A DNA stretch of 64,000 nt from Jannaschia faecimaris (GTDB taxonomy: Bacteria; Pseudomonadota; Alphaproteobacteria; Rhodobacterales; Rhodobacteraceae), in NCBI RefSeq assembly GCF_900107415.1, contig NZ_FNPX01000001.1, positions 310,001 to 374,000 of the forward strand, read 5' to 3'. The notes below the pieces were generated by a model that saw only the letters and a list, made by a program, of their open reading frames with translations, was not told the DNA's origin and did not search any database. Of the stretch, positions 17,063-61,010 are shown one piece after another; position 1 is the first letter of the stretch, and each line of letters begins with the position of its first letter. The translations under genes and the position numbers were made by a program.

Positions 17063-17635
17063 TCAGTTAGCAGGCGTCGACGACACCCCAACTTGCGCGG
17101 GGCGCAAAAGGCGGTCGCGTAGCATGAAACCTTCAGCCGCGACCTGAATGATTTCGCCCGCCTTGGTGCCGGGCAGTGGTGCCTCGAACATCGCCTGATG
17201 CATCTGTGGGTCAAACTTGTCCCCCACCTCGGGTGAGACAAGGGTGATTCCATGCTTGTTGAAAACCGAAAGAATTTCTTTCAGCGTCAGTTTTACACCT
17301 TCGATGACAGCATCGTCCGCCTCGCCGGCTGCATCCAGCGCGCGGCGCAAGTTGTCGTAGACGGGCAGCATGTCACGCGCCAGCTTGGACCCGCCATATT
17401 GCTCCGCTTCGACCCGCTCGCGCGCGGCGCGCTTGCGGACGTTCTCGGCCTCGGCCAGCGACCGCATCAGCCGGTCGCGCATCTCGTCACGCTCGGCGAT
17501 GAGGGCGTCCATAGCCGCACGACCCGACTTCGGTGACGCGTCCGGATCTTCTTCCATCGCAGCGTCGAGGTCGAATTCTTCGTCCACCATCATTTCGGGA
17601 TCGTCGAGGAATCCATCATCCTTCGGCTCGGCCAT
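17063..17635 (-). CDS. grpE: Nucleotide exchange factor GrpE
   Basis: The 190-residue protein has an acidic N-terminus, a long coiled-coil-forming region (DALIAERDEMRDRLMRSLAEAENVRKRAARE) and the C-terminal beta domain ending GFMLRDRLLRPAQVGVSS, which reads close to the GrpE signature. It releases ADP from DnaK. It lies 18 bp downstream of hrcA on the same strand, so the two form an operon, and is about 7 kb from dnaKJ. Confidence 0.97.
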   Translation of the reverse strand: MAEPKDDGFLDDPEMMVDEEFDLDAAMEEDPDASPKSGRAAMDALIAERDEMRDRLMRSLAEAENVRKRAARERVEAEQYGGSKLARDMLPVYDNLRRALDAAGEADDAVIEGVKLTLKEILSVFNKHGITLVSPEVGDKFDPQMHQAMFEAPLPGTKAGEIIQVAAEGFMLRDRLLRPAQVGVSSTPAN

Positions 17636-58913: not shown

Positions 58914-59615
58914 GTGAAACGCTCCCGCATCAACGACCTTATCACCGAGGGCGACGAGATGATCCGCCGCCATGGGTTCGTGCTGCCCCCTTTTGCCTAT
59001 TGGACGCCGGACGAATTCCGGGCCAATGCAGCGCGCGCGCGCGCAGTCATCGACGCGCGCTGCGGCTGGGACGTGACCGATTACGGCGCGGGCCGCTACG
59101 ATCAGATGGGGCTTTTGTTATTCACCTTGCGCAACGGCCGGCTGGCCGACCTGCGGCGCGGCGGGGGCATGTGCTATGCCGAGAAGCTGCTGATCTCCAA
59201 ACAGGACCAGCTCAGCCCGATGCACACCCATGTGATCAAGGCGGAAGACATCATCAACCGGGGTGGTGCAACGCTGGTGATCGAGCTGTTCGGCTCGGAC
59301 AGTGAGGGAAAATTCGCCGAAGACCGGGGCGGCACCGTCTTCTGCGACGGCATTCGGCGCGATTATGCGCCTGGCGAAAAGCTCAAACTGACCCCCGGAG
59401 AGTCGATCACCCTGATGCCCGGTGATTGGCATGCATTCTGGGGCGAAGGTGGCGACGTTCTGATAGGCGAGGTCTCGACCGTTAACGACGACGAGACCGA
59501 CAACATCTTTCGCGAACCGATCGGCCGCTTTGCGCAGGTCGACGAAGACACAGCCCCCCTGCACCTTCTGGTCAGCGATTACGGGATGCATCTTCCGCAG
59601 GGCAGACGCGCGTGA
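58914..59615 (+). CDS. D-lyxose/D-mannose isomerase-like cupin
   Basis: The 233-residue cupin has PPFAYWTPDEF, the metal site QLSPMHTHVIKAEDIINRGG (two His and a Glu), and a third His in LMPGDWHAFWGEGGDVLIGEVSTVND, as in D-lyxose ketol-isomerases. It would interconvert aldose and ketose (lyxose-xylulose or mannose-fructose). I used the GTG at 58914 because AGAAGG lies 9 bp ahead; an ATG at 58905 is possible but has no spacing. It sits alone downstream of tRNA-Pro and before the transposase remnant. Confidence 0.82.
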   Translation: MKRSRINDLITEGDEMIRRHGFVLPPFAYWTPDEFRANAARARAVIDARCGWDVTDYGAGRYDQMGLLLFTLRNGRLADLRRGGGMCYAEKLLISKQDQLSPMHTHVIKAEDIINRGGATLVIELFGSDSEGKFAEDRGGTVFCDGIRRDYAPGEKLKLTPGESITLMPGDWHAFWGEGGDVLIGEVSTVNDDETDNIFREPIGRFAQVDEDTAPLHLLVSDYGMHLPQGRRA

Positions 59616-60056
59616 ACCGGCTGGTCAGCACAATCAGCGCCACGCCGACAATTCAGAGCGCAGCAATCAGCGATGAGTGGACGGTCTTTAGGTGTGTAGT
59701 CCCGGCATCTGGTGGATCGGATTGATAATGAATCTGTCCGGCTCTGATGTCCAGATTTTGCAAATGTATTCGTAGGGCATGAGCCCGCTGAGCGTCTTAA
59801 GCCTCCGTGCGAAGTTATAAGCTGCCATGAAGTCCGCGAGGTGCGTGCGCAGCTGGTCGTGACTGTCGTAGTGATATCGTTTGACGGTGGCCTCTTTGAT
59901 CGTGCGGTTCATTCGTTCAACCTGGCCGTTGGTCCAGGGGTGGTTGGGTTTGGTCAGGCGGTGTTCGATTCCATTCACGTCGCAGATCATGTCGAACCGC
60001 ATCTGCCGGGAAGATGCCGTGTTCCGGTTCCGGGGCTGCTCAGCGAACTGGATGCC

Positions 60057-60082
60057 GTTGTCCGTAAGGGTTGTCCGTAAGG
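60057..60082. repeat. 13-bp tandem duplication in the transposase remnant
   Basis: GTTGTCCGTAAGG occurs twice head to tail (60057-60069 and 60070-60082). On the coding strand it repeats the LTDN segment of the catalytic core and shifts the frame. Confidence 0.95.
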
Positions 60083-60303
60083 ATCGTGTGGATGTGATAT
60101 GGGACAACCTTGGGCAGATGCTCCACGGACTCCCACGCTGTCTTGCGATCCGCCTTGTCCACCAGTTGCGTGGCCGCAAACTTGCTGGTCCGGTCAATCC
60201 CGACGAACAGGTAGAGCTTGCCCTCAACTGTCTGAACCTCGGCGATATCGATTTGAAAGAACCCGATGGGGTAGCGCTTGAACTTCTGCCGCTTTGGCTT
60301 GTC

Positions 60304-60340
60304 CGTTGCCCGGCAACACATGCTTGCATGTGTGAGAGGG
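60304..60340 (+). repeat. Small palindromic insertion element, copy B
   Basis: This 37-bp insert begins CGT-TGCCCGGCA-A, continues with the perfect stem ACACATGC-TT-GCATGTGT and ends in GAGAGGG. It splits the transposase between the residues expected as ...DVEG and DKPKR.... Compared with copy A it is in the opposite orientation. Confidence 0.7.
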
Positions 60341-60632
60341 GCCTTCGACGTCCGGCAGGCGCGAGATGCCGTGCCGCTGCAGGCAACGATGTAGTGCTGA
60401 ACGTGTCAGGTGCGGGATCGAGGGCTGCAGGGCATACAGACAATCATCCAGCGGCAGCAGTGTATGTCTTCGGAAAGCGACGATCATCGCTTCCTCCGCT
60501 TCGGTGAGGACCGTGGAGCGCGGCTCTTTCGGCCCGGTCTTCAAGTCCTCGACCGTCTGCCGTTTTCGCCACTTGGCGACCGTCTTCGGGTTGATGCCCA
60601 GTTCTTGGCTCAGTTGCGAGAGCGAAGCTTGC

Positions 60633-60673
60633 CCCTCTCGGGATCATGCGTTTCATGACCCTGCCGGGCAGTG
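60633..60673 (-). repeat. Small palindromic insertion element, copy A
   Basis: On the coding strand this 41-bp insert begins CAC-TGCCCGGCA-G, continues with a bulged stem GGGTCATG-AAACG-CATGATCCC and ends in GAGAGGG. It interrupts the transposase after codon 22. Core, CATG arms and tail match copy B; the outer stem bases differ but stay paired. Confidence 0.7.
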
Positions 60674-60884
60674 GATCGCTGTATTGCAGCTCTGACGGCG
60701 TGCGTGGTCGTGGCGCTCCCGTGACGAACTTGTCCCATAATGCTTCCTTCCAGGCATTAGAAAGGATCGCACCATCAAACCGTGGGATCAAACAGCTAAC
60801 ACCTTGGCTTTTGACGCAAAGAACGTCGCGACCCACCGGCTCGGAAGCAAACATTGCTTAGGCGTTGCGATGATCGAATTAATG

Positions 60885-61010
60885 TCAGTCCAGTCGGACC
60901 GAGTCGGTGCTTTGCCGTTCGGCCGAGGAGAAGCCGATCCGGTCGAGGCCCACATCGGCCACGACGGCGATCAGCAGGGCGGCTGCAAAGGCGATGAACA
61001 TGGTTTTCAT
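60885..61010 (-). CDS. Small membrane-anchored protein linked to formate dehydrogenase (41 aa)
   Basis: A short minus-strand ORF begins 6 bp after the gamma-subunit stop. It starts MKTMFIAFAAALLIAVVADV, a single hydrophobic segment, and ends in a polar tail (SAERQSTDSVRLD). GGAG lies 9 bp before the ATG, shared with the end of the gamma gene. The strict spacing and typical codon use suggest it is real. Whether it is an accessory subunit, an assembly peptide or something else cannot be told. The IS remnant starts about 150 bp downstream. Confidence 0.65.
   Translation of the reverse strand: MKTMFIAFAAALLIAVVADVGLDRIGFSSAERQSTDSVRLD

Follow-up and report, generated by a model that had tools for sequence, protein, structure and literature searches.

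A candidate new family of REP-like hairpin elements, frequent in transposase genes of one bacterial family

Toward one end of the window, by which we mean the whole 64-kb stretch of Jannaschia faecimaris DNA analysed here, lies an IS481-family insertion sequence whose transposase gene is a pseudogene (Table 1). Its lesions are two short inserts, a 13-bp tandem duplication and one in-frame stop, and one fragment of the transposase still matches the model NF033577 (E 3.4e-16). The original prediction had placed two frame-breaking insertions, in opposite orientation, inside this gene; their coordinates proved exact. The comparison with intact IS481 relatives that it called for was made at both sites, and L341, L404 (331 residues) and L405 (335 residues) carry neither insert. 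Because these intact relatives of 331-335 residues lack them, both are clean insertions without target duplication, and the empty relatives bear out the TC|GC junction that had been read at each copy. As to the predicted ends, GAGAGGG is the true end of the insert, whereas the last G of GAGAGGGG is a base of the target. The duplication lies near reference positions 369-378, where L149 holds another element. A search of positions 59600-61000 against Rfam gave two sub-threshold matches, neither over the inserts, and a known structured RNA was discarded as their identity. We call inserts of this kind class I.

Table 1. Features of the interrupted IS481 copy and its two class I elements (positions in the window; segment names as in the text).
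Feature	Position	Strand	Remarks
Host IS481-family insertion sequence, transposase pseudogene	59688..60798	-	aligns as DNA with whole IS481 copies
13-bp tandem duplication GTTGTCCGTAAGG in host gene, outside element	60057..60082	.	insertion at reference position 369 vs L341
Copy 1 target left flank, TTGTC; next base G at 60341	60299..60303	+	found in empty relatives; fits YCRTC|G logo
Element copy 1, 37 bp	60304..60340	+	antisense to transposase; empty site in L341, L404, others; covariance model E 1e-4 (window)
Copy 1 leader	60304-60308	+
Copy 1 P1	60309-60311	+
Copy 1 GGCA	60312-60315	+
Copy 1 P2 hairpin	60316-60333	+
Copy 1 GAGA	60334-60337	+
Copy 1 P1'	60338-60340	+
Element copy 2, 41 bp	60633..60673	-	sense to transposase; empty site in L341, L404, L405, others; covariance model E 1.5e-13 (window)
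Copy 2 leader	60673-60669	-
Copy 2 P1	60668-60666	-
Copy 2 GGCA	60665-60662	-
Copy 2 P2 with bulged T	60661-60640	-
Copy 2 GAGA	60639-60636	-
Copy 2 P1'	60635-60633	-
Copy 2 target left flank, GCGATC; next base G at 60632	60674..60679	-	found in empty relatives

The boundaries seen in the window recur elsewhere. When flanks were compared across the fetched loci, 31 filled loci (some sharing a host site) had an element-free relative, and the difference in length was exactly one unit in 25 of them and off by 1-2 bases in the other 6. Aligning 132 sites, one row per host site, gave the target consensus YCRTC|G: C stands at -1 (80%), T at -2 (61%), A or G at -3 (81%) and C at -4 (58%), and the insert is followed by G in 86%, the last figure being inflated since some loci came from a pattern that required GAGAGGGG. 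YCRTC|G is a fixed short target on the left without target duplication, as in a derivative of IS200/IS605. In hosts of the insertion sequence type the sites often seem to hit aspartate codons of DDE catalytic motifs (for example in L009, L014, L018, L311 and L119), because on the opposite strand the target reads C|GAY.

Class I inserts mostly break the frame. Stem testing passed 133 of 271 pattern matches in a first set of loci, and the frame count left out 25 of these 133 for an off-consensus leader or base 13, although some of the 25 look real. The remaining 108 are 34 to 44 bases long (34 in two loci), and their lengths leave 0, 1 and 2 modulo three in 16, 51 and 41 cases, so that 92 of 108 are not multiples of three. 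These lengths do not support an in-frame coding insert of the kind found in Rickettsia palindromic elements (RPE). A later set holds 189 elements at the 132 sites, a few of them perhaps chance matches, and includes one element of 45 bases.

Each class I unit consists of a 5-base unpaired leader, CRYTG, followed by a single hairpin that runs up to P1': a 3-bp P1, an invariant GGCA/GAGA internal loop, a freely variable P2, in which a T is often bulged, and an apical loop. Among 56 distinct 41-mers, in which P2 comprises pairs 13-34 to 21-25, 98.0% of 504 cells are standard-paired (71.5% when shuffled), the covariation score is 0.629 against 0.164 in shuffles, and every slid register fails. Cells changed on both sides number 111, against 31.7 in shuffles; of the 9 pairs, 7 vary on both sides, and 300 of 500 shuffles give at least as many. 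The bulged base T31 is T in 51 of the 56. For P1 the evidence rests on a P1-free search, since alignment A3 consists of chosen variants: the pattern TG-NNN-GGCA-P2-GAGA-NNN, with NNN unconstrained, was run over 2.47 Mb of loci, mostly recruited by CCC/GGG patterns, and gave 216 matches, against 0 for the scrambled control. P1 is CCC/GGG in 186 and something else in 30, of which 16 are fully paired and 12 show a double compensating change; shuffles average 0.5 such changes with a maximum of 4, and none of 10,000 reaches 12. Paired variants are ACC/GGT (6), CAC/GTG (3), GCC/GGC, CGC/GCG and GCT/AGC, and unpaired ones such as CCC/GGA (4) and ACC/GGG (3) occur too.

The compensatory stem changes proposed originally are thus strongly supported by covariation in both P1 and P2, but the two hairpins drawn there become one interrupted hairpin. 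Because the P1 pairs show compensating changes, GGCA opposite GAGA is one internal loop between two helices, and a separate hairpin around TGCCCGGCA was rejected, its CCC pairing with the terminal GGG. In the fold check that had been advised, single copies folded as DNA gave other minimum-energy forms of the conserved part in 3 of 3 cases, with z-scores from -1.25 to -2.10. Since single-copy folding favours other forms and the z-scores are modest, the structure rests on covariation.

Further copies, sought in this genome and its relatives as the prediction had advised, turned up in numbers, both by exact pattern and by covariance model. The pattern TGCCCGGCA, 10 to 30 bases, GAGAGGG matches twice in the 64-kb window (mean 0.00 in 100 shuffles) and 11 times in the whole genome, where the reversed pattern matches 0 times. 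The covariance model gives 18 matches at E up to 0.05, among them C11:88012, which spans only model positions 10-38, and one on C6 with E 0.013; this genome-wide count is without window copy 1, which scores E 1e-4 when the window is searched by itself. In all, the genome holds 17-19 class I copies. At window positions 17157-17178 on the minus strand, a weak covariance match (E 0.013 for the window) has leader, P1, GGCA and almost no P2, and may be chance or a remnant.

Beyond this genome, the exact pattern occurs in 13 of 20 members of the genus, this genome counted, and in 56 of 149 of the family, where the reversed pattern has 8 matches in all; some single exact matches have no stem and are chance, such as the sole match of G012. 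By covariance model at E up to 0.01, at least 72 of 148 family genomes carry class I, counts here being lower bounds (stricter filters, 44 candidates scored per genome). In a class-wide sample the exact pattern was found in 3 of 4 family genomes, against 1 of 285 others (three matches in that one, G361), and the reversed pattern had 2 matches. Class I thus occurs mainly in one bacterial family among the genomes sampled. It is also present on plasmids: one class I 42-mer matches 99 PLSDB records, and the ten commonest genera, which include Sulfitobacter, Leisingera, Phaeobacter and Dinoroseobacter, all belong to Rhodobacterales. The 42-mer found 0 matches among 50,697 phage records, and a phage origin was set aside on this ground; a pattern scan of IMG/VR gave at least 120 stretches, with at least 29 places passing the stem test, some by chance.

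Many hosts of class I are transposase genes, and these belong to several families of insertion sequences. Host reading frames were picked because homologues supported them within 60 bp of the class I copy, a choice that favours repeated genes and allows the element to lie outside the frame; 131 were obtained and 127 aligned, leaving out L166, L270 and two duplicates. At the 127 sites, frames in the flanks match models of IS3 (38), IS481 (32), IS5, IS21, IS630, IS1182, IS66, IS256, ISNCY and IS6, with members overlapping between models, and also match Pfam transposase families. Of 30 frames drawn at random from the 127, 14 score above the Pfam cut-off for transposase or integrase-core families and 3 below it, 3 have a helix-turn-helix domain only, 1 matches a short-chain dehydrogenase and 9 have no match. 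Of the 19 copies in the own genome, 12 are inside or next to IS481 (9), IS1182 (2) or IS3 (1); no family was found for the other 7 among the frames tried. Class I sits in both orientations relative to transposase genes, and both occur within single IS3 genes. Some copies (L291-L298 in genome G127, L051 and L068) have a repeated context, with TTCATCTTGC.AAATAAACTCCCG or similar before and GAGGC after, and perhaps lie between genes.

The prediction of a small mobile palindromic element is strongly supported by its many copies, by the 31 filled loci for which an element-free relative exists and by the stem covariation. A unit that is dispersed, has defined boundaries, structure and target preference, fills the same sites repeatedly in unrelated copies and abounds in transposase genes would, with slightly better than even probability in our judgement, be a new REP-like, non-autonomous family of hairpins moved in trans, probably as single-stranded DNA. 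Insertion falls between YCRTC and G, generally without duplication or loss of target, and mostly breaks the frame. We envision that the element moves as a folded single strand and that its leader and internal loop would be recognised by an enzyme supplied in trans. The enzyme may be HUH-like, or of another type that joins without duplication, and would not be resident in many carriers. The interrupted insertion sequences would mostly be dead and propagated by their intact relatives. A folded unit that inserts cleanly next to a short, fixed target is reminiscent of single-strand HUH transposition, with a putative enzyme; a simple hairpin transposon leaves the bias toward transposase genes unexplained.

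Which enzyme could act in trans? The original prediction named RAYT or IS200, and we consider it unlikely, yet the strongest of the rival ideas, that class I belongs to a Y1/RAYT (REP) system with a transposase that has since been lost or operates from other replicons. A tag with an imperfect hairpin and clean insertion 3' of a short target speak for it, and so does the family survey, in which the covariance, Y1 and Y2 searches are taken as covering the identical 148 genomes: a Y1 (IS200/RAYT) transposase match is present in 15 and a Y2 (IS91) match in 17, and class I was found in 12 of the 15 Y1 genomes against 60 of the 133 others (p 0.013, uncorrected). The corresponding figures are 12 of 17 against 60 of 131 for Y2 (p 0.07) and 22 of 29 against 50 of 119 for either (p 0.0016, without correction and with mobilome size as a confounder). 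A Y1-like gene lies some 550 bp from each of two class I loci, L420 and, at 70% identity, L082. Against this, neither Y1 nor Y2 has a match in the own genome, and the 72 detected carriers comprise 60 without Y1 and 12 with it, so that these data do not show RAYT or IS200 mobilisation as originally proposed, even if Y1 genomes carry class I more often. Among six Y1 loci examined, only L420 holds an element, and the DNA stretch around it recurs in L260, L280 and L061, where its Y1 gene has no match; the element of L082 sits in an IS3 copy. A resident Y1 transposase was rejected as mobiliser, being unmatched in the own genome and present in 15 of 148 family genomes, and so was Y2/IS91, present in 17. 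As the own genome and 50 of the 72 carriers have a match to neither Y1 nor Y2, the single-strand HUH step in our preferred account, a hairpin family moved in trans, is one we infer.

Several insertion sequences hold many inserts and still have a readable host frame, which raises the idea that inserts are removed, be it by exact excision from the DNA, by RNA processing or by ribosomal bypass, leaving the host transposase working and the insertion sequence able to tolerate several. The IS3 copy L284 (genome G094) has six inserts and a host of 408 codons without a stop, an IS3 element of genome G032 has four and likewise 408 codons, and L025 (IS3) has four and 406 codons. The G032 element exists in six copies 99-100% identical, with no full-length element-free copy among its 31 matches, and all three hosts show 3-4 changes at first or second codon columns invariant in the other rows, as unfilled copies do. 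We nevertheless find such removal quite improbable. Inserts lie in both orientations within one gene, so that removal at the RNA level is not easily possible; orfA of L284 has one extra base and orfB of L025 has lost 2; and stops, deletions or more damage mark the filled copies L288, L376, L024, L134 and L299. Copies within a genome that share inserts differ at first, second and third codon positions 17, 16 and 14 times (p 0.86 against uniform), in a pool that includes flanks perhaps beyond the gene ends (L282/L283) and has orfA positions assigned by hand. Three pairs of intact IS481 copies, a comparison set other than element-free copies within one genome, show a codon-position pattern unlike this one (p below 1e-6). 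Retained function had also been read from codon bias between filled copies, and this reading was dropped because the tree scatters those copies. The same sites are filled again and again: IS481 reference position 895 in seven aligned copies, position 603 in four, and IS3 site 353 in 7 of 32 copies, for which the tree requires 6 changes that do not separate gain from loss; a single clade is rejected (p 1e-42). One old clade of filled IS481 copies was likewise rejected, the empty L341 grouping as sister of the window copy. Gene conversion at hot spots, in which old inserts spread between insertion sequences by homologous recombination and not by transposition, would fit identical sites filled repeatedly, and fits site 895, where five IS481 copies, four belonging to the own genome, share a P2 subfamily and three have identical P2. 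It also fits L358 and L001, which have a common 2-base change beside the insert, and L287 (G094), where a single element has on its left the flank of one IS5 insert site and on its right that of another, as if two elements had recombined and deleted the intervening part. Yet identity is not raised around site 895, P2 versions and lengths often differ among elements at one site of diverged copies, and host frames firmly match many families, so we regard conversion as very improbable. Repeated filling is read most simply as independent insertion at preferred sites, although repeated loss or conversion may yield such counts too.

Known systems each share part of this description. IS200/IS605 elements move as folded DNA, insert cleanly beside a short fixed target and have hairpins at both ends; class I shares the folded unit and the clean insertion, and differs in its single hairpin, its size of about 40 bp and the lack of a transposase gene. 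It is unlike a DDE-derived MITE in having one hairpin without terminal inverted repeats and no target duplication (clean in 25 of 31 loci). The small dispersed repeats of Nostoc, reportedly described by Elhai et al. in 2008 and cited in PMC3116915, are very small mobile repeats, as class I is. Di Nocera et al. 2013 (PMC3733652) describe CGTC-tagged REPs as commonest in alphaproteobacteria, with heterogeneous stems and no dedicated transposase, mostly intergenic and paired but sometimes within genes; the tag is given as part of the repeat, stems start with A-T pairs and the tail fits CCA. Class I resembles these REPs, as portrayed there, in being small tagged hairpins with variable stems, no dedicated transposase and sometimes an intragenic place. 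It departs from that portrayal in that CRTC belongs to the target and not the repeat, because empty sites carry it; in a basal P1 of CCC/GGG (186 of 216) and a unit that ends at P1' without a CCA tail; and in the invariant internal loop and the many transposase-gene hosts. GTAG REPs and REPINs appear in PMC3116915 and PMC3733652 as small hairpins, not autonomous, which a single-strand transposase, RAYT, is believed to move in trans; class I resembles them in this, but has the leader CRYTG, no GTAG tag at the hairpin foot and no Y1 match in the own genome. Rickettsia palindromic elements, as described in PMC2229807, are 105-146 bp, in frame and inserted within genes; class I is likewise a palindrome within genes, but measures about 40 bp and mostly breaks the frame. 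No paper naming the class I element stood among the literature matches listed.

Class I is a structurally defined minimal mobile DNA that has sharp boundaries, follows a target rule and offers dozens of natural empty and filled pairs, and what moves palindromic repeats that have no transposase becomes testable on a 41-base substrate. That it is concentrated in transposase genes suggests that insertion sequences are subject to a layer of parasitism or control, and this may explain many broken-looking insertion sequences in these genomes.

Other tiny inserts accompany class I, in few copies each and with paired stem changes judged by eye. One could imagine, as a doubtful conjecture, that unrelated hairpin families (class I and those called here II and III) together make up a guild, hyperparasites or silencers, directed at the transposase genes of unrelated insertion sequences, that they insert through a machinery without resident HUH transposase or target duplication, and that they perhaps excise precisely and leave the insertion sequence mobile. 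Class II, about 42-43 bp, reads GGAGGRTCAG-RAAA...TTTC-CCGA with a stem-loop and some variation, and occurs near class I sites in the IS3 or IS481 copies L025, L024, L284, L345, L400, L376 and L396. Class III, 36-38 bp, reads CCATTGTCC...GGACAATGG with a similar loop and is found in the IS3 copies L025, L371 and L379, at reference sites 778 and 312. Finally, a 57-base insert at IS3 reference site 1005 in L376 and L396, from two genomes, apparently forms two hairpins, and paired changes are apparent by eye between the stems of its two copies.
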